Below, one piece after another: positions 151-14,982 of a stretch of 15,326 nucleotides of DNA. The position numbers and the translations under genes are program-made. Origin of the DNA: Candidatus Omnitrophota bacterium (lineage in GTDB: Bacteria > Omnitrophota > JACPQZ01); NCBI GenBank assembly GCA_016190205.1, contig JACPQZ010000032.1:1-15326 (forward strand), in the 5' to 3' direction. Each line of letters begins with the position of its first letter. Position 1 is the stretch's first letter. Below the pieces are notes generated by a model. The model was not told the DNA's origin. It did no database searches and saw only the letters and a program-made list of their open reading frames with translations.

Positions 151-284
151 CGCTTCTGTACCCCAACCCCCAGCCCCCAAGCCCCAATCCCTGTTCTGAA
201 TGGGTTGTTCCCGGATGGCGGAGACGTCTAGAGACCGGAGGTTTCTCGCCATGTCCGAACCCCGACCCCCAATCCCCAGCCCCC
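77..284 (-). repeat. Three C-tract clusters (potential G-quadruplexes on minus strand)
   Basis: Runs of three to five C separated by one to three bases occur at 77-97, 161-191 and 260-284. Each cluster has at least four runs, so the minus strand reads as G3-5 runs with short spacers, the classic form of a potential G-quadruplex. The clusters sit about 85-100 bp apart and partly follow the 85-bp repeat. They could be structural, could mark recombination-prone DNA, or could be lineage-specific intergenic repeats. Folding is inferred from the pattern only. Confidence 0.6.
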
Positions 285-431
285 GCATTTCATGGGGGCC
301 ATGGACGAACCCAGTGCCGATTCTCATGTGAGGATCGGCGTTTCCTATTCTTTGACCTCTCAGGGAATCGGTTCATGAGCCGACCTCTCGCCCCATTAAG
401 AGCAGGTTGTCACTCATTGCGGTTGGCGCCC

Positions 432-466: not shown

Positions 467-3370
467 ATGATGACGCTGGTCGATTTGCAGAAACAGCTCG
501 ACCAACATTTCAGGAGGCTGCGCGAAGAACGCTCAGCGGCCGTCGGTGACAAACCGATCTTTGCGCTTGAGCATGGGCTGGACACATCTGAACTGCAGGA
601 ATTGGCTGATCAAATCCGGTCCCACATAGTTCAATTTCCACCTTCCGACGGCCATGCTTTGCCTTGGATCGTATACGCCTCCGAGATTGGTTATCGCTAT
701 TTGGGTGATGAATATTGGCAAACCTTCGAAGAGGAAACACCCGGCTGGAGTTTTGGAGAGCGTGAGTGGTTGCGCCGTGCCTTTCAGTGGTTTCACCGGC
801 AATACGGTGGTGCGGAGCCATGTGGGGCGTGGGCGGATCATTTCTCAATTATTTGCTGGCCAATTACGCATGCCATTCTGCCCCACGATCTGCAGCATCA
901 TCTTGCCCGGATTCTATACGAGATACGGCATGCCTTCTCAAGCAAGCTCCTTGAATCACCGGCCGAGCTGGGAGAACGTATCGCCGCGAGAAGTTGGGAG
1001 GCTCCTTCTCGGTTTCAGAACCTCGCGCAAGACACCCTGCTCATAGGCCAGATTGCCGCAGCCCTGCTTTTCGAAGGTGAACGGGGTACACGCAGTCTGA
1101 TTCTCCCGGCCACCTTGAAACGCATTGGAGCTGATCTCGATCGCGAGAGGAGAGCACGGGATTGGCTGAAAGGCGCACGTCGCCTGGCGCACGATCGAGT
1201 TGAATTGCGAGGACTTTCGCGTGTGGGTGCTCTTGCGACCCCGGCAACTCGCGCTCCGGTAGAAGTCGCACGCGAAGAGGTTGCCGCCCTTGCGATTGAA
1301 CCACGATTGGTGCTACGACCAACTGGCGACTCTACCTCGTCATGGAAAGTCCTACTGGAGATTCCTGATCTCTCCCATTTACTCACCGCATTCCCTGAAG
1401 CTCGCCGAGCGCTCGCAGACTCTCGCTGTGTCGTGGCTGGATCCTCTGGTCGGCCTCTCCCGCGGGGTCTATTCTTACACGGCCCACATCTCGAGCCGTT
1501 AGTTCGGTGGCCACGCCCTGAGGAAGTTCTTCTGCGTTTCGAGGAGTCAACTTCGAAACTGGATTACCTTCTGCGGGCGGAATGTCTCTTGCGGCCTGGG
1601 CCCGTGTGGCTCTTTAGGGTGGCCCCAGACAGGCTCGCCTACGAAATGCGGAGCCTCCGGGTTCAGCCAGAGCAAAGTTATATAATCCTCAGTACTGGTG
1701 GACCTCTCAGACAAGACCCCCCTTTTTCGCCTGCCTCGATCTCCTGCGAGGGTGTTCACTCGGCCAAACTTGATCTTATGAAGAGAATTCCAGTAGCGTG
1801 GGCCACGGAACTGCAACGCATCGGCCTGAGACAGGGTAGAAGGATTCAAGTCTGGCCAACCGGGTTGACTGCTGTCAGTTGGGATGATGAGGGACGTGGA
1901 GAGTGGCTTTCCTCTGAGCGGCCAAGTATCGCGATCTGTGCTGACCACGAGGTCGATTCATTTAAGGTGAGCTTGGCAGGTTACACCGCCGAAGACCTGG
2001 CGATCTCATCTATCCGCCCTGGAAATCCAGTGTTTCTAGAACTTCCACATCTCCCTGTTGGCATTCACAAGTTGCGCGTATCGGCTCGCCCGACGCTGGC
2101 GAGTGGTGGGGAGGATCTCATCGGAGAACTGGATGTGTTCATCCGTGAGCCTCGTCCCTGGACCCCAAGCCTAAGCCCGCAGGGACCATTTGTTGTCTCA
2201 ATGGAGCCGATGACACCGACACTCGAACAACTCTGGGAGGGGCGTGTCGCCATTGAGATTCGCGGCCCACGAGGCCGACATGTCGCACCGATCGTCAGCC
2301 TCTTCGAAAAGCGTGCAAAGGTACCTAGTATTCGCAGGAACTTGGAACCTCTTGCACTACCGGTAGATCCTGGTGCCTGGAGAGTCCACTTCGAGAAGCA
2401 GTTCCGAGGAATCGAGCAGGTCCAGAATACGTACGATTCAGCTTACTCCTGCACTGTAGAACTCAACGCGGAAGAATTGGGGACATACTCCTTCGACTGC
2501 GAGCGAGCTTTCACTCCGATTCGATGGACAATCCAACGCAAAGCCGGCATCTATCACATTCGCCTTATTGACGACAGTGATCTATCAACCCCCGTGATGA
2601 CAACACGGTACTCATTCGATACACCAGATGTACCAGTTCAGATTGACTCCAAAGGCCTCTACCCCACGGTGCCGGCCGTCGAGGGCATGTATTTTGCTCA
2701 AAGGCAGGAGTCTTGGTGGGCCCAGATTGTGCCACCCCTTAAATTGACCCTTGGTCAGATCCCCGCGCCGTCTTTTCTTTCGTACCCTCGGAGTACTGAG
2801 GGTGTCATCGGGCTTCTTCAAGTGATTGAACGATGGGGCAAGGCACGGATTCCCGGAAATATTCTTGGTTTTGTCTTGAGGCGGAACGTGCTCCGAACTG
2901 CCACGCGACGCCTCTTTGGAAGGATAGCAGGTGGCGGCTGGGAGCATCGCGAATCATTCTGTGCCGGGGGGGCCAGTTCTCCTGGGCTCCAGGTCTTGCG
3001 CGATGGCCTCAGGGGATGGGAAGGGGAAGATTCTCTGGGGGCAGTTCTATTCAATAAGGTCTCATTATTTACGGCAATGGCCACGCCGCAGCGAATAGTT
3101 GAGCTTACCCGATTGGCACTTGACTTCAAGATAATTCGAACGGGCCCACTCGATCCACAGTGGCTGGTGGAGTTCGCTTTGAGGAATGCGAGTGAGCCAT
3201 GGACAGTGCAAGGATGGGCAGGTTCGAAGCTGCAGGATGGCATCGAAGTGCTGCTTCGGATTACCTCGCTTGCTCGGGCGGCGCGCTTCCTTGTCTTAGC
3301 GGTCGATAGCCAGGTAGGATCATTCGCAGCTGAAGGGATCAAGGTCTATTCCGGATGGGAATGGAACTAA
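467..3370 (+). CDS. Large protein of unassigned family (about 967 aa), first gene of the defence-like operon
   Basis: I do not recognise a named family. The start is taken as ATG 467 (ATG 470 follows directly); the frame extends to a TTG at 407, but that stretch reads like intergenic sequence. Residues about 60-165 are helical and rich in aromatic residues, with WIVYASEIGYRYLG (67-80), a W-F-x-x-x-Y segment and WPITHAILP (131-139). Residues about 276-430 look like a mixed alpha/beta domain. From about 500 to 740 the pattern alternates beta strands and resembles one or more Ig-like or beta-sandwich domains (YTAEDL, LPVGIHKLRV, GIYHIRLIDD). The C-terminal roughly 200 residues are mixed. There is no signal peptide, membrane segment, Walker motif or nuclease motif. 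It overlaps gene 2 by TAATG, so it belongs to the operon. By size and position beside a DruE-like helicase it could be a functional counterpart of DruH, but I cannot show homology. Existence is certain; function is unknown. Confidence 0.9.
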   Translation: MMTLVDLQKQLDQHFRRLREERSAAVGDKPIFALEHGLDTSELQELADQIRSHIVQFPPSDGHALPWIVYASEIGYRYLGDEYWQTFEEETPGWSFGEREWLRRAFQWFHRQYGGAEPCGAWADHFSIICWPITHAILPHDLQHHLARILYEIRHAFSSKLLESPAELGERIAARSWEAPSRFQNLAQDTLLIGQIAAALLFEGERGTRSLILPATLKRIGADLDRERRARDWLKGARRLAHDRVELRGLSRVGALATPATRAPVEVAREEVAALAIEPRLVLRPTGDSTSSWKVLLEIPDLSHLLTAFPEARRALADSRCVVAGSSGRPLPRGLFLHGPHLEPLVRWPRPEEVLLRFEESTSKLDYLLRAECLLRPGPVWLFRVAPDRLAYEMRSLRVQPEQSYIILSTGGPLRQDPPFSPASISCEGVHSAKLDLMKRIPVAWATELQRIGLRQGRRIQVWPTGLTAVSWDDEGRGEWLSSERPSIAICADHEVDSFKVSLAGYTAEDLAISSIRPGNPVFLELPHLPVGIHKLRVSARPTLASGGEDLIGELDVFIREPRPWTPSLSPQGPFVVSMEPMTPTLEQLWEGRVAIEIRGPRGRHVAPIVSLFEKRAKVPSIRRNLEPLALPVDPGAWRVHFEKQFRGIEQVQNTYDSAYSCTVELNAEELGTYSFDCERAFTPIRWTIQRKAGIYHIRLIDDSDLSTPVMTTRYSFDTPDVPVQIDSKGLYPTVPAVEGMYFAQRQESWWAQIVPPLKLTLGQIPAPSFLSYPRSTEGVIGLLQVIERWGKARIPGNILGFVLRRNVLRTATRRLFGRIAGGGWEHRESFCAGGASSPGLQVLRDGLRGWEGEDSLGAVLFNKVSLFTAMATPQRIVELTRLALDFKIIRTGPLDPQWLVEFALRNASEPWTVQGWAGSKLQDGIEVLLRITSLARAARFLVLAVDSQVGSFAAEGIKVYSGWEWN

Positions 3371-3372
3371 TG
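3368..3372 (+). promoter_or_regulatory. TAATG stop-start overlap, gene 1 to gene 2
   Basis: The TAA stop of gene 1 shares its last A with an ATG (3370) in the frame of gene 2. This argues for translational coupling and for 3370 as the start of gene 2, over the in-frame ATGs at 3355 and 3361 that lie inside gene 1. The same arrangement recurs at the gene 2/gene 3 junction. Confidence 0.6.
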
Positions 3373-4461
3373 AGAGTTCTGTCTGTTGACGACTTGCATG
3401 CACTTAAAGTAAAGGAATTGGGGCTTGATCCGAGTTCAATCGATCTAGGAAGTCCGGAGGCCATTGCTTGCGCCGTCCGTCGAGCTGCGGGATTTCTCTG
3501 CCCTTGTTCAGCGGTTACCCTTGTGCGTTCTGTCGTGCTTCCATTGAAGGGGCTTGTCGAAGACCTTGACAGCGTTCAACTCACAGTTGAACAGATGCTC
3601 GAAGCCCTAATAGCCCACGGAGATCTCCTCGAACACTGCGACATAAGCAGTGGAGAGTCCGAACACACCGCTGTGCTGCTCTACGGTGCGCCCCCCAGTT
3701 TTGTCATGCGGCAGACCGGTGCAGTCTTTTTGTTCGGAATCGTGCCAGATCATGCTTTGCTGCTTCCGGACGAGCTTCAGAGCCGGGTCGAATACGTTAA
3801 CCACGTCCGAAAGCTTCCTGCCGATGCTGCGGAAAACCTTCGCATTGAATTGAAGCATCTCGATTTTGTGGAGATCTCCTATGAAACTTGGCTAAAGGCG
3901 CCGCCCTATGAGACCCCTGCTGAACACATCGCGCGCCTCGACCAACTGCTCGAGGATGCGCCTGAATCCGGTGAAATCCCCGGCCTGCGCTTGTTGGATC
4001 CCTCGAAATCTGTCCGTTATTACCGGGGTCGGTGGGTTGATCCGAAGCTGGAAACCGGTCGCTTCGTGGCTCGGCGGCGTCGGGCTTACGGTGCCGACCT
4101 CTGGTGTTACGTAGAGATGCGCAATGGCCGCCCTGAGCGGTTCATCGACCTTCCACTCGCGGGCAACCGAACACGCGGTTGCGACGAAGCGTGGCGACTC
4201 CAAATGGCCATTGATGCACAGCGCGGTGATGCACAGAGGTTTAGGCTCCGTGAGGGCGTAGGAGGCAACCGTTTGCTCGATTTCTTCTCGCCTGTTCCCA
4301 TGTGGGCGCAACGCCGGTGGAATGCGATTGGCGAGCCTATGTTGAATCCCGGCTCCCTTATATCCTACCGTTTTGCGCGTGACGAGACTGCTGAGGAGAT
4401 TCATTTTGCGCATGACATGCTGTGGCTGTCAGAAATAGTGGAGCGGGGAAACGGCCAATAA
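3370..4461 (+). CDS. Unassigned protein (about 363 aa) between gene 1 and the helicase
   Basis: No family is recognised. The start is ATG 3370 in a TAATG overlap; upstream in-frame ATGs at 3355 and 3361 are possible. The N-terminal roughly 95 residues are mostly helical (AIACAVRRAAGFLCPC, then LTVEQMLEALIAHGDLLEH) with a spacing reminiscent of a winged-helix domain. A middle segment has GAPPSFVMRQTGAVFLFGI, predicted as strands. The C-terminal half carries a basic and aromatic patch (YYRGRWVDP, GRFVARRRRAYG), followed by a glycine-rich stretch and DFFSPVPMWAQRRW. No catalytic motif, transmembrane helix or zinc cluster is evident. It is locked between gene 1 and the helicase by stop-start overlaps on both sides, so it is probably made in step with both and may be an adaptor or DNA-binding subunit. 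That role is inference from context only. Confidence 0.9.
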   Translation: MRVLSVDDLHALKVKELGLDPSSIDLGSPEAIACAVRRAAGFLCPCSAVTLVRSVVLPLKGLVEDLDSVQLTVEQMLEALIAHGDLLEHCDISSGESEHTAVLLYGAPPSFVMRQTGAVFLFGIVPDHALLLPDELQSRVEYVNHVRKLPADAAENLRIELKHLDFVEISYETWLKAPPYETPAEHIARLDQLLEDAPESGEIPGLRLLDPSKSVRYYRGRWVDPKLETGRFVARRRRAYGADLWCYVEMRNGRPERFIDLPLAGNRTRGCDEAWRLQMAIDAQRGDAQRFRLREGVGGNRLLDFFSPVPMWAQRRWNAIGEPMLNPGSLISYRFARDETAEEIHFAHDMLWLSEIVERGNGQ

Positions 4462-4463
4462 TG
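4459..4463 (+). promoter_or_regulatory. TAATG stop-start overlap deciding the helicase start
   Basis: The TAA of gene 2 shares its last A with ATG 4461, in frame with the helicase. The longer frame begins at ATG 4422 but would place 13 extra residues inside the coding end of gene 2. A purine-rich GGAGCGGGG lies upstream at about 4440-4448. The identical TAATG layout at 3368-3372 supports this choice. Confidence 0.65.
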
Positions 4464-7400
4464 GATGCTCGAATGGCTACGACAATCGGGGAAACAATTC
4501 AGCAAATGCACCACGCAGTAAGAGACTACATCGAAGCAACGTATCATATTAGCCACCCAACCCTTGTTGCCCAACGACGAAATCTTCTTGAAGAGGTGGG
4601 TGTCATCCATCAAAGGCCCTATCTGGAAAGTACGCCCCGCTATCAGCTTGGTCCTGCGTTCAGTGAACTCGGACTTGAAACGGCGGCGCTTGAGATATTC
4701 TCTGCAGTATCGAAAGCCGAAGGCGACCACGGTCTCCTTATCCATGATCCGCCCTATCAGCACCAGGCTGAGGCAACGAAACGGTCTCTCGTTGGGCGGC
4801 GCAGCCTCGTGGTTATGACCGGCACAGGCTCGGGAAAGACGGAGTGCTTCCTCCTTCCGATCTTGGGGAAATTGGCGCAGGAGGCGAAAGCGAGGGGATC
4901 CGACTTCGGCAGAACCACTGCGGTCCGCGCGATCGTTCTTTACCCGATGAACGCGCTGGTTAACGATCAACTTGGCCGTCTCCGGTTGCTCTTTGGCGAT
5001 CCACGCGTCGTCAACAAATTCATGGCTTGGACCGGGAGGCCAGCGCGCTTTGCGCGCTACACCAGTCGGACGCTCTACCCAGGTGTGCGTGATGAAAAGA
5101 AGGACAGGGAGTGTCTCCCTCCGATTGAGAAGTACTACGTCCGAAACCTCGAGATAGCACTCGGGCCAGCATCTCCCCAGCAGGCTGCCGCTGAAAGCCT
5201 CGTTAAGGAGCTAAAGAAACGCGGGAAATGGCCCGCCAAGCCTGATTTGATCGGCTGGTACGGAAAAAGGGCGAGTCGCTGGAGGGACCCAAGAACTGGC
5301 GCGTTCAGGCGATGTGTCACGTTGTTGGGCGACCCGGAATTATTCACGCGACACGAGGTCCACGAGGCTCCGCCTGACGTGCTAGTCACCAACTACTCGA
5401 TGCTCGAGTACATGCTCATGCGGCCACTGGAACGGCCGATCTTCGATAGAACGAGGGAATGGCTGAAGGCGAACCCGAAAGAGGTGCTACTGCTCGTGAT
5501 TGACGAGGCCCACCTGTACCACGGCGCAGCCGGGGCCGAGGTTGCACTGCTCATTCGACGGCTTCGTATGCGGCTCGGTATTCCGCCCGAGCGGCTTCAA
5601 ATCATTTGTACGAGCGCCAGTTTCAAGGATCCCGGGTATGCAGCGAACCTCGGGGCGCAACTCACGGGGAAGGCTCGAGCGGACTTCGATACTGTCCGGG
5701 GAGATCTCCTCCTTCGGTCCGGTGCGGCCCCAGGCACCCAATGGGACGCCGATGCACTAGGCAAGATTGATCTGGGGGTGTTTTACGAGGCCGATGATGA
5801 CGCCGCGAGACTCGCAACGGTGAAATCATTCCTCGAGTACCGCAGCGTGCCCGAGCCATGGGACCTGCGACGCGCGTTGTATGACGCGCTCGTAACGTTT
5901 GGACCCATGGCGCAGTTGGTCAACTTGACCATGATGGAGGCGCGCCCCGTTGAGAGTCTGGGCGGTACGGTCTTTGCGGGCGTCGAAGCGAAGGTAGCAG
6001 CGAAAGCCGTAACGGCCCTGATCGCTCTCGGGAGCTTGGCGCGACGCGACCCGACTGAGCCTGGCCTTCTACCCTGTAGAATCCACTCCTTTTACCGTGG
6101 GCTGCCTGGGCTATGGGTGTGCATGGACCCGCAGTGTTCACACTTGCCGACCGATCAGCGCGGTGGTCCCGCTGGCAAGCTCTACAGCCAGCCACGAGAC
6201 ACTTGTGAGTGTGGCGCTCGCGTTCTCGAACTCTTTACATGCCGGAACTGCGGAAGTGCCTACGCCCGTGCCTACACCAACGACGTTGATGCTCCGAACT
6301 TCCTGTGGGCAGAGCCAGGCGGGGCCTTCCGTACAATTGTGGGCTGGTACGACGAGCTTGAGCCATTGGATCTCCTCCTTGAGACGCCCGTGGTCGAGGA
6401 TGCTGAGCCGGCCGAGTACGACCTACTCACGGGTAGACTTAACCCGCAGCAACTCGGGTCCCGGGTTCGACAAGTTTACATGCGAAAGATGCGGTCTGTA
6501 GCACCAGACCATGAAACTGAATCGATGAATGCGCGCCCGGGCGAGTTCAAGCCGTGCGCTGCATGCGGAGAGAGCGCTGCCTTCGGTCGGTCCTCGGTTC
6601 AGGACCATCAGACCAAGGGCGACCAACCTTTCCGGGCGTTGATCACAAAGCAAATCCAGGTCCAGCCGCCGAACTCGGTCGCAGCCACGAGACTCGCTCC
6701 CCTCCGAGGGCGTAAGGTGCTCGTCTTTTCCGACTCGCGGCAAACCGCAGCGCGCCTTGCCCCAAATCTCCAATCGTACTCGACGCAAGACGCGCTGCGC
6801 CCTTTGATCGTGTTTGGGTACGCCAAGCTCACGTGTGTCCAAGTTCTCGCTCAATTTCTCTCGCTCGAGGATCTGTATTTCGCGGTGTTGCTGGCGGCGA
6901 AAGCTTTGAGCGTGCGCCTCCGCCCAGAGTTGAGAGAGGGAGAGAGCTTCCAAGTGGAGTATGTCGTCGAGGGAGCCGTGAACGCCGGCGCGCTGTCGAG
7001 CGATGCTGATCTGCTGGGGCTTTTCTTACAACTCCGCTCGTCTCGTCCTCCTGAGTCCCTGCTTCGCGCGATCAGCACCTGCTTGTCCGATCGGTTCTAT
7101 GGGCTGGAGTCGCTGGCACTGGCCTCGGTCAGTGAACGGTTGGAGCACTCAACGAAGATGCAATTGTTTCCGGATGTCCCCGGCTACGCTGTCTCCACGA
7201 CCGAGAAGCTTGCGTTGGCCCGTGCGTGGCTGCGGTGCTGGAATCGAGCGGGATTTTGGCTTAGTCGGATGCCTTTGGCCTGGTGGCAGAACGATATTCA
7301 GGCACGCTCAGGCAAGTTCATGGAGTTGCATCGACTCCTCAAGGACAAGCCCGCGAGGTCGCTTTTCGAGAAAGAGTGGGTACCAAGGCTCCTCAGCCTT

Positions 7401-10028
7401 TTCGCAGAGCAGACCGAAGCAGGTAAGTACAGGCTGAAGGGTAGCGAGTTGTCGCTTAGCATTGGGGGGGTCTGGGCGTATTGTCAATCGTGCCGTACTA
7501 CACAGCGGCCTTATCCGGGGAAGACCACCTGCATGAATTGCGGGCAGGACACTGCCATTCCGATCAACCCCGATGCCGATCCCGTTTTCTCCGCCCGGAA
7601 AGGATACTACCGGGCGAGCACGGCCGCGGCGCTAAAGACGCCTCCGATTGCGCCGATGGTGCTCATCGCTGCAGAGCACACCGCACAATTGAGCACCGCA
7701 CAAGCGGATGAAGTATTCTCGAAGGCAGAGGAGCATGAACTCCTGTTTCAGGATGTGAACCTTGGGCCTGAGGATGGGGGCCGCGAACGGCCCGCCATCG
7801 ACGTCCTGTCCTGTACCACGACAATGGAGGTGGGTATCGACATCGGTACGCTCTCGGGCGTGTCTCTTCGTAACATGCCGCCGGCGCGAGCCAACTACCA
7901 ACAGCGGGCGGGCCGGGCCGGGCGTAGAGGTAACGCCGTCGCAACCGTAACTGCATTCGGCAGCGCTGACAGTCACGACGAACACTACTTCACGAACCCG
8001 GACCAGATGATTCGGGGAGCCGTTGATGACCCCACGCTGACTCTGGACAATCCGGAGATTGCGCGTCGCCACGTTACCGCCTTCCTCTTGCAGCGCTACC
8101 ACCAGACGAGACTACCGTCGATCAAGCCAGAAGATCAACCGCATCTGTTTGCGGTGTTGGGCACGGTCGCGGACTTTAAGAACCCCCGGAAGATCCTTAA
8201 CCGGGCCGATCTCGAGAGTTGGTTGCAGGCGAACGAAACCAGCTTGAAGGGTGAGGTCAACGCATGGCTGCCAGTTGAATTATCAGCTTCGGACCGAAAG
8301 AGGCTTCTCGACGAGCTTCTCGACAGAACGCTTGAGCAAATAGATGAAGCCATCGAGTATGACGCTGGTACTGCGTCCGTTGCTATCTCGACTAAAACAC
8401 TCGGACCAGTTGCAGAGGGAATGGGCGAGGACCAAGTGGCCACAACCTTGGAGGCACCGGATGAAGCTGAGGAGGAACGCCCAGGCCGAGATCCAGCCTC
8501 TGAGAACCTTCTAGATCGGCTCCTATATAAGGGGATCTTGCCACGGTACGCCTTTCCAACGGACGTGGCCGCGTTTCATGTCTTTGACCCGGACCGCTCG
8601 ACGCTATTCCGACCGGCATTTCGCTTCACACCCTCACAGGGGTTACCCATTGCGCTCTCACAATATGCACCAGGCAAGGAGGTGTGGATCGGGGGTAAGC
8701 TCTGGACGTCCGGTGCCATCTATTCACCGATGCGCAACGACCGGGTCCACGCCTGGGAGAACCGACGACTGTACTACGAATGTAGCGTTTGCCACTATGC
8801 CCGGACCGCCACACTTGATGAGGGAGTCCGGGGCGAGGCGAAGGACTGTGAGGCCTGCGGCAACGCCAACACATTTGGCCCGGCGACGTACTGGCTGCGG
8901 CCGCCAGGCTTCGCCCACCCTGTAAGCAAGGCCGAGGGTACTTCGCCCGATGACCAACCGGCGAAGAGTTACGCGACCCGCGCAAAGTTGACGGCCCCAA
9001 CACCGGCTGACGAGTCCAGTTGGGCTAGGCTCAACGAGCGGATCCGTGTTCACTACACAAGACAGCATCTTCTCGTGACCAACCGAGGACCTCGCGAAGA
9101 GGGCTACACCTACTGCACTAAGTGTGGTCTTATCGAGCCAACAGCCTTGCCGCAGGGCACTGTGGGAGCGGCGCATCGAAAGCCTTATCCGGACCAGAGG
9201 GATGCGAACTGCCCTGGCGGCGGCGCCACGAAGGGGTTGGTGCTTGGGACTGACTTCATTACTGATGTCCTTCTCGTCTCGCTCAGGGTAGACCCACCCT
9301 TGACGCTCCTCCCTACTTTGCTCGCGACGGACGTTGCCCTGCGCACGCTCTGTGAGGCGATCACGAAAGCAGCCTGTGAGAGCTTGGAACTTGATGCAAG
9401 CGAGCTACTGGCTGAGTACAGGTCTGCGCTCACACCGGCGGGCCGCGAGGGTAGGGAGGCGGAACTCTACCTCTACGACACGCTTCCTGGTGGCGCGGGC
9501 TTCGCCCAACGCGTGGGTCGACTAGGCCTCACGGTCTTCCGAGAGGCACTACGGATTCTGGAGAACTGCCCGGACAGGTGTGATCGATCATGCTACCGGT
9601 GCCTGCGCAGCTACAAGAACAAGTTCGAGCACGGCCTTCTCGATCGGCACCTAGGCGCGAGTCTTCTCAGGTTCTTGCTTGACGGTACTGCGCCGATGCT
9701 CGATGCGGCTAGGCTGGAGCGTTCCACGAACTTGCTGTACCAAGACATCGAGCGCCAAGGCCTCGAGGGCCTCTCCCTCGAGAGGAATAAAAGCGTATTG
9801 GTCCCTGGTCTGTCGAGCGCGGTCGCGCCCATCCTCGCCACGAACCGTACAGGCAGGTGTTTCGTGATTGGGCTCCATGGGCCGTTAACGCCGGACACAC
9901 CATCAGACGATGCGTTGAGGGAACTCAAGGAATTTTCGGTGGCGATCCCGGTGATACTTGTGGATGAGCTCGTGGTATGTCGGAACCTTCCGAGCGCAAC
10001 CGCGGATTTGATTGCGAAAATTCGGTAG
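4461..10028 (+). CDS. druE: DruE-like giant DEAH-box helicase with DUF1998/MZB C-terminus (about 1855 aa)
   Basis: This is an ATP-dependent superfamily 2 helicase of the YprA/MrfA-related group used as the motor in Druantia and related systems. Visible motifs (numbered from ATG 4461) are: Q-like YQHQAEA (99-105), Walker A TGTGSGKT (120-127), Ia YPMNALVNDQ (161-170), VTNYSMLEYML (309-319), DEAH (348-351), TSAS (384-387), a second RecA domain opening with VLVFSDSRQTAARL (753-766), motif V TTTMEVGIDIG (1119-1129) and motif VI QQRAGRAGRRG (1147-1157). Cysteine pairs suggesting zinc knuckles occur at about 554/559, 582/584, 594/597, 699/702, 1008/1011, 1024/1027, 1441/1444, 1463/1466 and 1552/1555. 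The DUF1998/MZB end has DTLPGGAGF (1673-1681) and four cysteines at 1703, 1707, 1711 and 1714. About 350 residues separate the start of RecA2 from motif V, an unusually long insertion. The length fits DruE. DISARM splits comparable functions between DrmA and DrmB, so a DISARM-type label fits less well. Confidence 0.93.
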   Translation: MDARMATTIGETIQQMHHAVRDYIEATYHISHPTLVAQRRNLLEEVGVIHQRPYLESTPRYQLGPAFSELGLETAALEIFSAVSKAEGDHGLLIHDPPYQHQAEATKRSLVGRRSLVVMTGTGSGKTECFLLPILGKLAQEAKARGSDFGRTTAVRAIVLYPMNALVNDQLGRLRLLFGDPRVVNKFMAWTGRPARFARYTSRTLYPGVRDEKKDRECLPPIEKYYVRNLEIALGPASPQQAAAESLVKELKKRGKWPAKPDLIGWYGKRASRWRDPRTGAFRRCVTLLGDPELFTRHEVHEAPPDVLVTNYSMLEYMLMRPLERPIFDRTREWLKANPKEVLLLVIDEAHLYHGAAGAEVALLIRRLRMRLGIPPERLQIICTSASFKDPGYAANLGAQLTGKARADFDTVRGDLLLRSGAAPGTQWDADALGKIDLGVFYEADDDAARLATVKSFLEYRSVPEPWDLRRALYDALVTFGPMAQLVNLTMMEARPVESLGGTVFAGVEAKVAAKAVTALIALGSLARRDPTEPGLLPCRIHSFYRGLPGLWVCMDPQCSHLPTDQRGGPAGKLYSQPRDTCECGARVLELFTCRNCGSAYARAYTNDVDAPNFLWAEPGGAFRTIVGWYDELEPLDLLLETPVVEDAEPAEYDLLTGRLNPQQLGSRVRQVYMRKMRSVAPDHETESMNARPGEFKPCAACGESAAFGRSSVQDHQTKGDQPFRALITKQIQVQPPNSVAATRLAPLRGRKVLVFSDSRQTAARLAPNLQSYSTQDALRPLIVFGYAKLTCVQVLAQFLSLEDLYFAVLLAAKALSVRLRPELREGESFQVEYVVEGAVNAGALSSDADLLGLFLQLRSSRPPESLLRAISTCLSDRFYGLESLALASVSERLEHSTKMQLFPDVPGYAVSTTEKLALARAWLRCWNRAGFWLSRMPLAWWQNDIQARSGKFMELHRLLKDKPARSLFEKEWVPRLLSLFAEQTEAGKYRLKGSELSLSIGGVWAYCQSCRTTQRPYPGKTTCMNCGQDTAIPINPDADPVFSARKGYYRASTAAALKTPPIAPMVLIAAEHTAQLSTAQADEVFSKAEEHELLFQDVNLGPEDGGRERPAIDVLSCTTTMEVGIDIGTLSGVSLRNMPPARANYQQRAGRAGRRGNAVATVTAFGSADSHDEHYFTNPDQMIRGAVDDPTLTLDNPEIARRHVTAFLLQRYHQTRLPSIKPEDQPHLFAVLGTVADFKNPRKILNRADLESWLQANETSLKGEVNAWLPVELSASDRKRLLDELLDRTLEQIDEAIEYDAGTASVAISTKTLGPVAEGMGEDQVATTLEAPDEAEEERPGRDPASENLLDRLLYKGILPRYAFPTDVAAFHVFDPDRSTLFRPAFRFTPSQGLPIALSQYAPGKEVWIGGKLWTSGAIYSPMRNDRVHAWENRRLYYECSVCHYARTATLDEGVRGEAKDCEACGNANTFGPATYWLRPPGFAHPVSKAEGTSPDDQPAKSYATRAKLTAPTPADESSWARLNERIRVHYTRQHLLVTNRGPREEGYTYCTKCGLIEPTALPQGTVGAAHRKPYPDQRDANCPGGGATKGLVLGTDFITDVLLVSLRVDPPLTLLPTLLATDVALRTLCEAITKAACESLELDASELLAEYRSALTPAGREGREAELYLYDTLPGGAGFAQRVGRLGLTVFREALRILENCPDRCDRSCYRCLRSYKNKFEHGLLDRHLGASLLRFLLDGTAPMLDAARLERSTNLLYQDIERQGLEGLSLERNKSVLVPGLSSAVAPILATNRTGRCFVIGLHGPLTPDTPSDDALRELKEFSVAIPVILVDELVVCRNLPSATADLIAKIR

Positions 10029-10045
10029 GCCGAGAGTGCCGAGGG

Positions 10046-11275
10046 ATGCCTGGCGTAGTGCTTTGGAATGCTAGGGAACCTGCAGTTTGGCCGAGACCGC
10101 CGCAGGAAATGACGGTTTCGACGCTGTTGGAGATCGAGACCTGCCCACGTCGATGGGCACTGGCCTCCGCGGACTATCCTGAAATCTGGGCTGGGCACGG
10201 TTACCCCCCCAAGCCGCAGATCAGCGGTCTCGCAGGGAGTGCAGTGCACCTGGCCCTCGAAACGGTGACCAAAGCGCTCGTTCACGCGGGATGCACCTCA
10301 GTTCGAGACGCAGGGGCAGTCCGATTAATGAAGAGTCTCGGGGGCTACAGCAAGGTTTTGGAAGACTGTGTTGACCGAATCGTCGAGCGTTTCGTGGGGA
10401 ACCCACGTGCAGCCCACCTCCTGGAGAACTCCGGTTCTTCTCTAAGGACGCAGATTCCCGAACTCCGCACCCGCGCGCAAGTACTGCTGGGACGACTCCG
10501 CCTCTTGGGAAGGAAAGCCATAGCAGACCGCCCAAGCGAAGCCAAGACGCGAGGCCCTCTCTTGCATGGCGCCTTCTCTGAGATCGAACTCCGGGTGCCA
10601 CGACTACGATGGAAGGGGAGAGTTGACTTGCTTATCCTCTCCGATGATGAATGCGAGATCCTTGATTTTAAGACAGGAACTGAGAATGATCAGCACCTCT
10701 TCCAGGTCAGTGTCTATGCGCTGTTATGGGGCCAAGACGTAGAGCTCAACCCTACCGGTAGACTTGCTAGCCGACTGAGGCTCGCGTACAGGGCGGGAGA
10801 TGTCATAGTGACACCGCCTTCCGCGGCTGAGTTGACTGTCCTCGAGAATGAGATTGTCACACGACAGGAGGCCGCAGAACGTGCCGTCGCGAAGAAGCCT
10901 CCCGATGCATACCCAAGTGCAGATAATTGCCATTCCTGTAACGTGAGACAACTGTGTGATGCATATTGGGGACCCGAAACGCAGGAGCAGCTTGCGATGA
11001 TTGCCGATGAGAATCAGTTCAGTGACGTCGAGTTGAGGGTCATTGGCCGACACGGTCCATCCAGTTGGGATGGAGTGATCGAATTCTTTTGCGGGAAGCC
11101 TGGGGTTGTGGGGAAGCGGTGCGTCCTTCGGGCATCTCAACAAGGCCTGGACTGCCAGACGGGTATGCGACTCCGTATCCTACATGCGCGCATCACTCCT
11201 ACGATTGACGGTGCTTCTCAACCGCCTGTAATAACATTGGGAGTGAATAGCGAAGTGTATGTTGTTGGCTGGTGA
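10046..11275 (+). CDS. Cas4/AddB-like PD-(D/E)XK nuclease with putative Fe-S cluster
   Basis: A RecB-family exonuclease-type protein of about 409 aa (numbered from ATG 10046). An early CPRRW has Cys33, then H68 and E72 lie in GSAVHLALE. Asp194 is in GRVDLL, and Asp207-x-Lys209 is in ILDFKTG, with Gln220 in the following helix, matching the usual H...D...(D/E)xK...Q layout. Cys295, 298 and 304 form C-x2-C-x5-C, which with Cys33 gives the four-cysteine pattern of a 4Fe-4S cluster as in AddB and Cas4. The last roughly 95 residues (VELRVIGRHG, GMRLRILHARITP) look like a small beta-barrel, possibly OB-fold, for DNA binding. It starts 17 bp after the helicase. The frame also has an ATG at 9977 inside the helicase gene, an ATG at 10109 and a GTG at 10058; 10046 keeps the WPRPPQ lead-in. 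It is probably the DNA-cutting partner of the helicase, which is inferred from adjacency. Confidence 0.88.
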   Translation: MPGVVLWNAREPAVWPRPPQEMTVSTLLEIETCPRRWALASADYPEIWAGHGYPPKPQISGLAGSAVHLALETVTKALVHAGCTSVRDAGAVRLMKSLGGYSKVLEDCVDRIVERFVGNPRAAHLLENSGSSLRTQIPELRTRAQVLLGRLRLLGRKAIADRPSEAKTRGPLLHGAFSEIELRVPRLRWKGRVDLLILSDDECEILDFKTGTENDQHLFQVSVYALLWGQDVELNPTGRLASRLRLAYRAGDVIVTPPSAAELTVLENEIVTRQEAAERAVAKKPPDAYPSADNCHSCNVRQLCDAYWGPETQEQLAMIADENQFSDVELRVIGRHGPSSWDGVIEFFCGKPGVVGKRCVLRASQQGLDCQTGMRLRILHARITPTIDGASQPPVITLGVNSEVYVVGW

Positions 11276-11404
11276 TTTCAGTGGGAGATGAGATTCGCAA
11301 GATACCATTGATTTCCGCGAGATTCCTGGACACTGACCATTATCAGGCGGGGAAGGCAGCATGCCCCTCCCGCCCCAACCGTCAACCTTAGGGCATGTGA
11401 GATC
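11276..11404 (+). other. 129-bp spacer, the only sizeable gap inside the cluster
   Basis: No open frame of interest. It contains the GC-rich hairpin at 11346-11374 and an AGGG at 11390-11393 that can serve as ribosome-binding site for the ATG at 11405. I found no -35/-10 pair with normal spacing, although TTGATT (11308-11313) and CATTAT (11338-11343) are present 24 bp apart, which is too far. It may hold an internal promoter or an RNA-processing site between the two blocks of genes. Confidence 0.5.
11346..11374 (+). promoter_or_regulatory. GC-rich imperfect hairpin between nuclease and GHKL genes
   Basis: GGCGGG (11346-11351) pairs with CCCGCC (11369-11374), extended by a G-T pair. After a 2x2 internal mismatch, GGCA pairs with TGCC around a 3-nt loop. 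No T-run follows, so it is not a classical intrinsic terminator. It could attenuate transcription, stabilise an mRNA end or mark a processing site that separates expression of the upstream and downstream blocks. Confidence 0.4.
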
Positions 11405-12943
11405 ATGAAAACGCCAATTGTCAAACTCCAACAGTTCATCCAGGCAATTCGCGATGCTGGCTACCGGGGTACTGGTGCAGCTTTGTCCGAGTTGATTGAT
11501 AATGCTTTTGAGGCGGGGGCGAAGAATGTCCGGATCGAGATCGAACTCAAGTCCGAGAAGAGAGAGCAAATTGGGAGTATCAGGATAGCAGATGATGGCT
11601 GCGGAATGTCCGCGGAGGTATTGGAGGCAGCTCTTCAGTTTGGTGGCAGTTCTCGGTTCGGGTCGCGTGAAGGCACTGGACGATTCGGTATGGGGTTGCC
11701 GAACAGTTCTGTGAGTCAGGCGAGACGCGTAGAGGTCTATTCTTGGGAACGTCGCGGCGCCCCACTCTGGTCGGTCCTCGATATTGACGAGATCGTCAAG
11801 GGAACGTGTGAGGCGATACCACGACCTGTTGCGAAGAAGCTTCCCGGAGGGTGTTCGCCGATTGCTTCCGCTCATGGGACAATTGTGGTGTGGTCCGAGT
11901 GTGACCGTCTCAATCCGAGCCGCCCCTCATTCCTCATTCAGCGACTACAACAAGAGATTGGCCGGATCTTCCGGTATGCGTTATGGGGGGGACGGCGTAT
12001 TACAATAAACGGTCAAGATGTCCGCCCGCGTGATCCCCTGTTTCTGCGCGAAGGAAGCAATCTGCAGGGGGCACGTCGGTACGGGCCTGAGGTGAAATAC
12101 CTTGTGAAGGTGTATGATACCGCCGGCCGGCCGGCCACATCAACGGTACTTGTACGATTCGCCGAGTTACCGATTGAAGAGTGGTATACACTTCCGAACG
12201 AGGAGAAGAGACGACAAGGAATTAGCAAGAAGGCGGGGGTCTCTATTTTGCGAGCCGGGAGGGAGATTGACTATGGTTGGTACTTCATGAGAGGGAAGCG
12301 GAAAGAGAACTACGACGACTGGTGGCGGTGCGAGGTCGAGTTCCAACCCGACCTTGATGAATTGTTCGGTGTGACGCACACAAAACAGGAAATTAATCCC
12401 ACAGACCAGATCACTGAGCTGCTTGCCCCCGATTTTGAGGAGATCGCACACAAATTGAACTCCAACGTGCGCCAGCGCTTCATCAGACTGAAACCGAATT
12501 GGGCTGCATCGTCCGAGCGCATTGCGTCGGAGAAGGATGCGCAGTTTGAACCGCCGCGGCGTGCAGTGGATGATTGCCGGAAGTCGAGCAACAATGCCGG
12601 CAATAGACCAGTTCCGATCACCTTAGGGTCGGCATTCAAGCTCGAGGGCCTGAAGTACAGGCTTGTCGTGAGGGATCTTGCATCCCCCGACTTCTTCACG
12701 TCGCAGTTGGATGGCCCCCATCTTACCGTGACACTGAACAAACTGCACCCCTTCTTCGAGCGCATGTGTCGCCCCCTCACCGAGGGTGATGGAGTAAATG
12801 CGGCGGTTCTGCGACAGCAAGTCGAATTGCTCATCTTGGCCGCCGCCAGGGCTGAGACGGGGCTAGAGACGCGTACGTCCCGGACGGTGTTCCAGCAGTT
12901 CCGTTCGTCTTGGAGTGACCTGCTGGCGGCTTTTCTCGCATGA
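11405..12943 (+). CDS. MORC/MutL-type GHKL (HSP90-like) ATPase
   Basis: A soluble ATP-binding protein of 512 aa. The Bergerat fold is clear: the N box is SELIDNAFEAGA (28-39, with Glu29 as likely catalytic base, and Asp32/Asn33), G1 is DDGCGM (63-68), and the lid/G2 is GTGRFGMGL (90-98). After about residue 175 a transducer (S5-like) domain follows, including ALWGGRRITING (192-203) and ILRAGREIDYG (281-291), the latter resembling the basic loop of MORC and MutL transducers. The C-terminal third (about 405-512) is unassigned and lacks the MutL endonuclease motif. In this family ATP binding closes an N-terminal dimer clamp on DNA. Prokaryotic MORC-like ATPases are known beside restriction-type genes. 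It has its own ribosome-binding candidate (AGGG 11390-11393) after the 129-bp spacer and ends in an ATGA overlap with the DruA gene. A histidine kinase is unlikely because no sensor, HAMP or H-box region is present. Confidence 0.9.
   Translation: MKTPIVKLQQFIQAIRDAGYRGTGAALSELIDNAFEAGAKNVRIEIELKSEKREQIGSIRIADDGCGMSAEVLEAALQFGGSSRFGSREGTGRFGMGLPNSSVSQARRVEVYSWERRGAPLWSVLDIDEIVKGTCEAIPRPVAKKLPGGCSPIASAHGTIVVWSECDRLNPSRPSFLIQRLQQEIGRIFRYALWGGRRITINGQDVRPRDPLFLREGSNLQGARRYGPEVKYLVKVYDTAGRPATSTVLVRFAELPIEEWYTLPNEEKRRQGISKKAGVSILRAGREIDYGWYFMRGKRKENYDDWWRCEVEFQPDLDELFGVTHTKQEINPTDQITELLAPDFEEIAHKLNSNVRQRFIRLKPNWAASSERIASEKDAQFEPPRRAVDDCRKSSNNAGNRPVPITLGSAFKLEGLKYRLVVRDLASPDFFTSQLDGPHLTVTLNKLHPFFERMCRPLTEGDGVNAAVLRQQVELLILAAARAETGLETRTSRTVFQQFRSSWSDLLAAFLA
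12940..12943 (+). promoter_or_regulatory. ATGA stop-start overlap, GHKL ATPase to DruA
   Basis: The ATG of the last gene overlaps the TGA stop of the GHKL gene. No Shine-Dalgarno-like sequence precedes 12940, which suggests re-initiation by ribosomes finishing the ATPase. An alternative in-frame ATG at 12955 is preceded by AAGGG at 12946-12950. Confidence 0.5.
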
Positions 12944-14982
12944 ATAAGGGCAAGATGCAGACGTACATACCACTTTTACCGTCGCTCGGGGAGCGCTCAA
13001 AAGAGTTCGTCGACATCATGCGGCGGCTCTCCAGGTGTTTGTCACGCTGCCGCCTTGGTAACAGACAGCCGGTAATCGCGAAGTTCCGGGACAAGGTGTG
13101 CTCGGCGTTGAATAGACCTCAGGCAACGCAGGCGCTTGAGTTCTCCTTCGCCGTGAACGTCATTCTTGACTACTTGACCATTGGGTGGAAGATCCGAGTT
13201 AAGGGGGGAGTCGTACAGATAGCGTCCCCGCCCGTTGACGACATGGATCCGACTGACTATAAGGACTTCATCAGACAAGGACACTTGACCGATCGAAACG
13301 CCCAACTTGCCGAGAAATCTGTTGTTCAGTTCATTCGAAAGATGGAGCGTCGAACACTTACCCCTAAGGGGTGGCATTCCATCTTCTCGCTTATGCGGGA
13401 TGGGGCGGCCCTCTCCAAGGAATTGACAGGCATTGCGAATGTGTCCGACCGAAAGGAGCAACTACGCAGGCTGGCAGAGATGATCTCGCCATATATTGAA
13501 TTAGTAACCGAGGATGCGCGGTGTCCGCATACTGGGCTTCAGCTTCGGGATGTATGGCGTTACTTACGTCATACCTGGGTGAATGCGTATAACTCCATTC
13601 CCGGCCGATCGATGTTGCTCCTAATTCGTGATGCTGCGGCAGAGAATCACCCGGTTATCGGAATTGCTGCTTTGGGTAACGCTGTCGCGCAACAGAAGAA
13701 GAGGGACGAATGGATCGGTTGGGACCAGGATGCATTCGTACAGAGGGTTCTACGGGAGCCCTCGCGCGAATATGGCCTTTGGATACTGGAGTCTCTCGAT
13801 AGATTGATTGACGCTTTGTATGTGGATGATCTCTTCCGCGATCGAATCTGTCAACTAATTGACGTCGATCACCCAACGGACCGGGCCGTCGAGCGCCTGC
13901 AAAGGGAGAGTGAGAGAGCGATCAAGCGGCACCGCCTGTATCCCAGGGCGGCGAATCACAAAGCGCGGCAGAGGCATTCCACGGAGAAAGTGAACTGGGA
14001 AGAGCAGGCACGCACAAACCTGTTTCGGAGCAAACGGTGCAAGACCCTCGCGCGGCTTCTCCGAATCCGACAGGTGTTCCAGAAGAATGGTTTAAGGTCA
14101 GGCAGCAAAGAAGAACTGGATAAGGCACTTGGGTCCTCGGCATTCAGGAACGCACTTGGTCAGCTTGTGCGAATGGTAAAGGCTGAGCATGTCGGGATCG
14201 ACATGATGGACATCGTGGTCTGCGGTTCTGTGGCGCCGTACAACGTCCTGCTGGGCGGGAAGCTAGTCTGCATGCTCCTTTGCAGCCCGGAAGTAGTGAA
14301 AAGCTATGCTCGGCGGTATGGTCAGCGAGCTAGCGTCATCGCATCATCAATGAAGGGTTCCCCCGTGATCCGCCCGCCGCACTTGGTTTTGCTTTCCACC
14401 ACAAGCCTTTATGGTGTTGGCTCCAGTCAGTACAACCGCGTCAAGATACCCTGTGAACGGATTGGCGGAGCCTCAGGGGAGCATGTGGAGTACCTGGAAC
14501 TTGGAACCAGTGTGGGGTACGGGACGTACCACTTCAGCGGTGTCAGTGCCGAGATCGCACAGAAACTGGTTGAACGGCGACAGAGTGGGCGGCAGGTGAA
14601 CAGCATATTTGGCGAAGGAGCTAACCCGAGAATTCGGAAGTTGCGGGAGGCATTCGACAGGGTGGGATTGCCTTCCAACGAGATGCTACAGCACGGGAAT
14701 CCGCGGGTTGTTTACGGGATAGCTCTTGCCCGCAACTTCCGCGAGACGTTGCTTGGTTTCGCTAGAAGGCCGTCCTACTACTTTCCACTCCCGAATGACA
14801 AGGAGCGGACACGCCAAGTCGGAGATTATTGGCGTGAGAGGTGGCTTCTCGGCAGGATTGGACGTCCGGGGATTTTAGAAGAGGTGGCGAACCACACGCT
14901 TGCGCACCCAATAGCTCATGGCGCTCGGGTCATTCTGCCGCGGAATGGCGAGGACATGCGACTGGGCTTCGACTATGAGTAA
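12940..14982 (+). CDS. druA: DUF4338 family protein, DruA-like (680 aa, N-terminally extended)
   Basis: The C-terminal two thirds carry the signature of the DUF4338 / Druantia DruA family. These are WRYLRHTW (206-213), HPVIGIAALG (237-246) followed by KRDEWIGWD (254-262), then PYNVLLGGKLVCMLL (433-447), SPEVVKSYARRYG (449-461), LLSTTSLYGVGSSQYNR (484-500) and a GTSVGYGTYHFS segment (522-533). The catalytic or binding activity of DruA is not established to my knowledge, so no reaction is proposed. Residues about 1-200 are an extra helical, basic region not seen in the shorter DruA proteins I recall; 305-375 is also strongly basic (IKRHRLYPR, NHKARQRH), suggesting nucleic-acid contact. It is coupled by ATGA to the GHKL ATPase and lies last, whereas druA is first in type I Druantia. 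ATG 12955 is an alternative start. Family assignment rests on remembered motifs, not a search. Confidence 0.85.
   Translation: MNKGKMQTYIPLLPSLGERSKEFVDIMRRLSRCLSRCRLGNRQPVIAKFRDKVCSALNRPQATQALEFSFAVNVILDYLTIGWKIRVKGGVVQIASPPVDDMDPTDYKDFIRQGHLTDRNAQLAEKSVVQFIRKMERRTLTPKGWHSIFSLMRDGAALSKELTGIANVSDRKEQLRRLAEMISPYIELVTEDARCPHTGLQLRDVWRYLRHTWVNAYNSIPGRSMLLLIRDAAAENHPVIGIAALGNAVAQQKKRDEWIGWDQDAFVQRVLREPSREYGLWILESLDRLIDALYVDDLFRDRICQLIDVDHPTDRAVERLQRESERAIKRHRLYPRAANHKARQRHSTEKVNWEEQARTNLFRSKRCKTLARLLRIRQVFQKNGLRSGSKEELDKALGSSAFRNALGQLVRMVKAEHVGIDMMDIVVCGSVAPYNVLLGGKLVCMLLCSPEVVKSYARRYGQRASVIASSMKGSPVIRPPHLVLLSTTSLYGVGSSQYNRVKIPCERIGGASGEHVEYLELGTSVGYGTYHFSGVSAEIAQKLVERRQSGRQVNSIFGEGANPRIRKLREAFDRVGLPSNEMLQHGNPRVVYGIALARNFRETLLGFARRPSYYFPLPNDKERTRQVGDYWRERWLLGRIGRPGILEEVANHTLAHPIAHGARVILPRNGEDMRLGFDYE

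Follow-up and report, generated by a model that had tools for sequence, protein, structure and literature searches.

Does a run of six long genes, in which Druantia-type proteins stand beside a Cas4-like nuclease and a GHKL ATPase, form an undescribed Druantia-related type of defence system, as the initial annotation of this DNA proposed, or does it belong with a type that already has a name? The window analysed here is the entire 15,326-bp contig C20 of a 1.65 Mb source genome (93% complete), and because it spans its complete contig the flanks are unreadable at this locus. For each gene, many genomes carry a homologue in the same neighbourhood, and the cluster is far above chance. The G+C content of the window (57%) was the same as that of the remaining genome, with tetranucleotide usage slightly apart; ORF1 had relatives in none of 383 other genomes of the host's phylum, and DruE was represented there by weak helicase matches only, in 57 genomes. 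The cluster fits a horizontal gain, a binning error being a possible alternative source of its presence in this genome.

Gene content and relation to Druantia type I

The six long genes occupy the plus strand of the window (Table 1). They are real and lie where they had been placed, though one junction departs from the overlapping or near-overlapping layout that had been described: all junctions overlap except that between the nuclease and GHKL genes, whose 129-bp spacing corresponds to a module boundary. Searches of the window for Rfam families, tRNA genes and tandem repeats found none, and a scan of the window for promoters and terminators returned no more sites than in shuffles. The stretch 5' of ORF1 at window 160–342 contains C-rich repeats (CCCCCAGCCCCCAAGCCCCAATCCC and similar) and, at 313–342, a 13-bp hairpin followed by a T-rich tail, the number of terminator-like sites being not above chance.

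Table 1 Features of the window, with coordinates and the basis of each assignment
Feature	Position	Strand	Basis
ORF1, unnamed core protein	467..3370	+	Without match in Pfam, PADLOC, NCBIfam, PHROGs; family in 84 loci
druD (ORF2)	3355..4461	+	PADLOC DruD1 PDLC00010; profile match to canonical DruD
druE (ORF3), YprA-family DUF1998 helicase	4422..10028	+	PADLOC DruE1 PDLC00013; DEAD, Helicase_C, MZB
Cas4/AddB-like PD-(D/E)XK nuclease (ORF4)	9977..11275	+	PDDEXK_1; invariant catalytic and cysteine positions
Gap of 129 bp between core-nuclease unit and GHKL-DruA unit	11276..11404	.	Relatives place and orient the two units differently
GHKL (MORC/MutL/MzaB-like) ATPase (ORF5)	11405..12943	+	HATPase_c_3; MORC2 best solved relative
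druA, long form, 680 aa (ORF6)	12940..14982	+	PF14236; PDLC00001; predicted GNAT-like core
Helical insertion in long DruA, ~150 residues (approx. 268–418)	13741..14193	+	Absent in short DruA; helical in model

Druantia type I, attributed to Doron et al. 2018, reportedly consists of DruABCDE, and three of these five parts (DruA, DruD and DruE) are present in the window. ORF2, one of two proteins at first left unassigned, is DruD: it matched the PADLOC model over residues 7–361 (E=1.1e-115) and canonical DruD in an hhalign profile comparison (probability 92, E=6e-7), leaving ORF1 as the only unassigned protein. DruE matched the DruE1 model with 1940 bits over 18–1866, compared to 662 bits for the next best, DruE2, and the DruE2, DruE3 and DruE4 models all scored far lower; DruA matched PF14236 (E=4e-33) and the PADLOC DruA1 model (585 bits). 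PADLOC models for DruB and DruC matched nothing in the window, and the PADLOC scan of all six proteins found no druM/F/G, druH or druL. The initial annotation was therefore right that druB, druC and druM/F/G are missing and wrong about druD, and with ORF2 being DruD and PADLOC models existing for DruA, DruD and DruE here, its argument for a separate type fails. Since druB and druC are absent the cluster is filed as a variant of type I, one of modular build, and not as an unrelated new type. There is good support for the proposed Druantia-related defence cluster that has its own nuclease and an ATP-gated clamp, and for the underlying domain calls (DEAD/Helicase_C/MZB helicase, PDDEXK_1 Cas4-like nuclease, HATPase_c_3 and DruA).

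Compared to a canonical example of type I on the Pseudomonas putida plasmid pKF715A (L015), the window shares the type I DruE, DruD and DruA and an apparently inactive C-terminal domain of DruE, but ORF1 replaces DruB/DruC, DruA carries an insertion of ~150 residues, and the GHKL ATPase and Cas4-like nuclease are extra. DruE may start at GTG 4422 or at a later ATG, and across 79 relatives no set of catalytic residues is conserved at its C-terminal end; according to a published analysis, type I DruE ends in an inactivated Vsr domain (PMC12458937). Druantia type III (DruH-DruE) likewise combines a DruE helicase with a large partner containing Ig-like domains (PMC13192584, PMC13316683), but the window lacks DruH, and type III DruE falls in another clade, without DruA, DruD, GHKL or a Cas4-like gene. 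The PLD-type nuclease domain of type III DruE itself is reported to be active (PMC13192584, PMC13316683).

ORF1 is about 968–987 aa long (ATG 467 gives 968 aa, and the frame opens at TTG 407) and had no match in any of the four libraries listed in Table 1. It belongs to a conserved family that, within Druantia loci, always adjoins DruD-DruE. The predicted model (pLDDT 86, pTM 0.59) has a helical N-terminus, an Ig-like beta-sandwich in the middle and a helical C-terminus; Foldseek returned no match at E≤0.001, with the helical N- and C-terminal parts barely covered, and structure comparison of residues 477–586 gave Ig-like beta-sandwich similarity only, a common arrangement. Sequence searches gave no convincing solved relative for ORF1, long DruA, the nuclease or DruD. 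ORF1 is common to a second defence-like system, in which ORF1-like proteins (hhalign probability 99.9) stand outside Druantia beside SNF2-type helicases in Rhizobiales and Rhodobacterales. On three alphaproteobacterial plasmids (L006:4844–19900, L007:3413–17015, L008:11188–25919), the ORF1-like protein and SNF2-type helicase occur near UvrD, DUF1998 and NERD genes.

Recurrence of the core and the slot after DruE

Using a five-sequence DruE alignment to scan 84,980 genomes, at least 566 relatives were found, of which the best 80, from nine phyla, were kept, so that the sample leans towards DruE proteins near that of the window. A profile search of ORFs across the loci, plasmid loci included, counted ORF1 in 84, DruD in 83, DruA in 80, GHKL in 39 and the nuclease in 27, and canonical DruB and DruC (P. 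putida pKF715A, PADLOC-confirmed) had no homologue in the 80 related loci. Across the 80 loci from nine phyla the order ORF1-DruD-DruE hardly varied, neighbouring genes overlapping by a median of 10 and 4 bp. The complete set of six was present in 15 further genomes, belonging to four phyla, so the six genes do travel together; many of these genomes were from actinomycetes, and Halotalea alkalilenta (L019), Desulfobulbus (L024) and the acidobacterium L040 were also among them. The one-strand layout with GHKL-DruA 3' of the core was rare, the pair lying on the opposite strand in 28 of 38 relatives; it recurred on one IMG/VR contig, where ORF1-DruD-DruE-nuclease is followed on a single strand by a GHKL-like gene and another GHKL-DruA pair.

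Carriers of the system include plasmids and viral contigs, and the flanks of relatives held phage integrases, transposases, AbiE, GmrSD, CBASS, BREX, DISARM and other defence genes as well as metabolic genes. IMG/VR contigs classed as viral (L109:10004–22958, L112:6067–21500, L110 and L111) held complete or nearly complete systems. Decaying copies were seen on two Sinorhizobium medicae plasmids (L004:8383–21612, L005:8380–19080), where an IS3 element splits DruE and ORF1 is broken. The operon DruA-ORF1-DruD-DruE on Nitrosococcus watsonii pNWAT01 (L003), of which DruA is the sole annotated member, has an identical core order to the window, but there DruA is short, GHKL is absent and the slot after DruE is without a nuclease.

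In the window this slot holds ORF4, which matched PDDEXK_1 (E=1e-17) and Cas4-like proteins, with GxxD217, DxK232, QxxxY247, C56, C318, C321 and C327 invariant in 23 sequences; the true start is probably ATG 10046, judging from the starts of homologues. The GxxD, DxK and QxxxY motifs and the four conserved cysteines, from which an Fe-S cluster may be inferred, are those of Cas4/AddB-like Fe-S nucleases, but ORF4 scored 28.8 bits against the NCBIfam Cas4 cut-off of 65 and, at ~420 aa, has extra N- and C-terminal parts. Neither cas1/cas2 nor any other cas gene was found in the window. Across the relatives, the slot directly 3' of DruE held a Cas4-like nuclease in 27 loci, a NERD/UvrD-like helicase protein in 19 (by family search), a DUF4365 and PDC-M02B pair in nine actinomycete loci (in two of these elsewhere in the locus) and nothing recognisable in 29, and at least 17 changes in its content fall on the DruE tree. 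A strict need for a nuclease in the slot was considered and rejected, as 21 of 37 short-DruA loci had no recognisable nuclease there. A tie between a filled slot and the GHKL module, strong in the raw counts (p=2e-4), found no support on the tree, with a median p of 0.25, and 0.625 for the Cas4-like gene alone. DUF4365 and PDC-M02B, a phage-defence candidate pair in PADLOC, replaces the Cas4-like nuclease at L034:15707–17463 and in eight more actinomycete loci and, since it takes the place of the nuclease after DruE, may act as a Druantia effector.

The GHKL ATPase, two forms of DruA and the alternatives

ORF5 matched HATPase_c_3 (E=2e-19), and its ATP-site residues E29, D32, N33 and D63-G65-G67-M68 were invariant in 38 sequences. 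The label 'MORC-like' was borne out by MORC2 as the best solved relative of the family (E=1e-13), which is also close to MutL. Its N-terminal GHKL domain matched MzaB of the MZA system (E=1e-21), but with 76.7 bits against a cut-off of 850, and no other MZA gene was found among the six proteins.

DruA occurs among the relatives in two forms, and the window protein scored 585 bits against the 675-residue PADLOC model compared to 127 against the 407-residue model. The long form (about 670 aa) was accompanied by a GHKL gene in 38 of 39 loci, nearly always directly upstream of DruA, whereas none of 38 loci with the short form (about 410 aa; 384–474 aa) had a GHKL neighbour. On the DruE tree, GHKL presence and DruA form changed at least seven times, jointly each time, and the independent supported pairs agreed in all cases (6/6, p=0.03). 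The main difference between the forms was the mid-protein insertion, with zero occupancy of the short form at positions 271–410. In the predicted model of long DruA (pLDDT 87, pTM 0.87) a GNAT-like core is interrupted by the insertion, which is helical. The top structural matches of the model were mostly GNAT acyltransferases (Z up to 8.8, 141 residues, 3.2 Å), and Foldseek gave no significant match (E about 1 or worse). G440-K441-L442 is conserved after a core strand, though the CoA-binding consensus Q/R-x-x-G-x-G/A was not matched exactly. On co-occurrence only, GHKL would dock on the DruA insertion, and the pair would act as one module. On haloarchaeal and Hymenobacter plasmids (L011:13698–24758, L016:13644–23742, L009:10692–22943) the partners of long DruA are an FtsK-type translocase and unnamed genes, with no GHKL gene, and together they are perhaps another DruA-based system. 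Two consecutive GHKL genes preceded DruA in three loci (L012:13545–17827, L013:956–5197, L109:21078–22958), hinting at a heterodimeric clamp.

The two units of the window have different nearest relatives among the best 80 of at least 566: the core was closest to L017 and L063 (DruE 74–76% identical), which have short DruA, and GHKL and DruA were closest to L040 and L052 (43–46%). The window is therefore a hybrid of modules, and the word 'hybrid' in the initial annotation stands in this other sense, of a core and a GHKL-DruA module that differ in their nearest relatives. The 129 bp between the units and the opposite strand of the pair in 28 of 38 relatives could speak for two independent side-by-side systems, ORF1-DruD-DruE-nuclease and GHKL-DruA, that cluster merely through the gathering of defence islands. 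A Roseivivax plasmid bears the GHKL-DruA pair and no DruE, yet its relative in Leisingera has DruE just beyond that pair. The DruE loci with enough flank had either short DruA or GHKL with long DruA, with no clear case of neither and never both, and this replacement of short DruA, a component of a known system, by GHKL and long DruA counts against independence. The units also co-diverge (r=0.85–0.91 between units, compared to 0.97 for GHKL with long DruA and 0.95–0.97 among the core genes), and two independent systems are considered improbable.

Similarly improbable is a plain Druantia type I in which ORF1 would be DruB or DruC, or the two fused, diverged beyond sequence detection, with the nuclease and GHKL as optional passengers. 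DruA, DruD and DruE do match the type I models, and the 987-aa ORF1 sits where DruB and DruC would be: in loci with short DruA, that of Nitrosococcus for example, it fills the druB-druC place, with druA on one side and druD on the other. ORF1 has no sequence kinship to either protein, however: its profile gave hhalign probabilities <1% each against P. putida DruB and DruC, by which a DruB-DruC fusion was rejected, and the PADLOC DruB/DruC models matched nothing. GHKL, unlike a passenger, tracks the form of DruA almost perfectly. A DNA-repair or chromosome-maintenance operon of a YprA/MrfA-type helicase, an AddB/Cas4-like nuclease and a MutL/MORC-like ATPase is very improbable, for though a role in repair is known for the MrfA-type helicases of the other branch of the YprA family (PMC12458937) and GHKL is also near MutL, the genes are patchy across nine phyla (with ORF1 in 0 of 383 other genomes of the same phylum), have flanks with integrases, transposases, AbiE, CBASS, DISARM, BREX and GmrSD and are carried on plasmids and viral contigs, all of which fits mobile defence, as do the DruA, DruD and DruE assignments.

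Proposed working and significance

The preferred reading, to which we give a probability of roughly 0.6, is a variant of type I with a core, an exchangeable nuclease slot and an exchangeable activator or specificity unit, in which the clamp pair licenses, DruE moves and a nuclease cuts in trans. Judged by its sequences, the cluster probably works like Druantia type I plus a clamp module plus a nuclease. What was observed is which genes are present, that their active-site motifs are conserved, that they recur as modules and that GHKL and the insertion switch together; the remaining steps may be inferred as follows. The first unit would be the ORF1-DruD-DruE core, the second the slot after DruE (here the Cas4-like nuclease), and the third either short DruA alone or, as in the window, the GHKL ATPase with long DruA. 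ATP-bound GHKL would dimerise into a clamp that sits on DNA or beside it and docks on the insertion of long DruA, and the pair would sense or license foreign DNA or an infection state and load the ORF1-DruD-DruE complex. DruE would then unwind or translocate along DNA, and the Cas4-like nuclease would cut in trans; cutting in trans is suggested by the lack of a conserved catalytic set in the C-terminal domain of DruE, and the suggestion is weakened by loci with an empty slot, which speak against a strict need for a nuclease in trans. In ORF1, the candidate surface for contact or trigger recognition is the Ig-like middle. The DruE of type III engages DNA that has single-stranded stretches, and the probable trigger sensor there is DruH, with its Ig-like domains (PMC13192584); by analogy, ORF1 and DruD may hold DruE and read the trigger.

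A review that classes type I Druantia as methylation-related describes a phage protein that promotes site-specific methylation by which phages evade this type (PMC12904381), so a methylation-based self-recognition is possible. The window has no methylase gene. The proposed model assigns methylation no role, and this counts against it.

PADLOC, NCBIfam and the papers searched contained no named subtype with the complete set, and among those papers there was no relevant one joining Druantia with GHKL, MORC or GNAT. The pattern is new to these libraries and papers, with an earlier sighting of the ORF1 core or the GHKL pairing possible. A further-reaching claim is advanced tentatively, at somewhat less than even odds: that this is a widespread subtype, absent as such from the libraries and papers searched, in which a MORC-like ATP-gated clamp and the domain inserted in a DruA of GNAT fold make up an exchangeable licensing module. 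The module would take the place of short DruA and govern a YprA helicase served by interchangeable trans nucleases, so that activation and cutting could be exchanged independently within one defence system. As PADLOC models call only half of the six genes Druantia, the variant is probably under-reported, in many phyla.

How type I Druantia recognises and destroys phage DNA is poorly understood, and the comparison made here yields testable handles. ORF1 is a core subunit missing from the catalogues; the helicase tree shows at least seven points at which the GHKL-DruA pair takes the place of plain DruA; the defined DruA insertion predicts a docking site; and the nuclease slot would explain cutting by a system whose helicase has no evident active nuclease domain.
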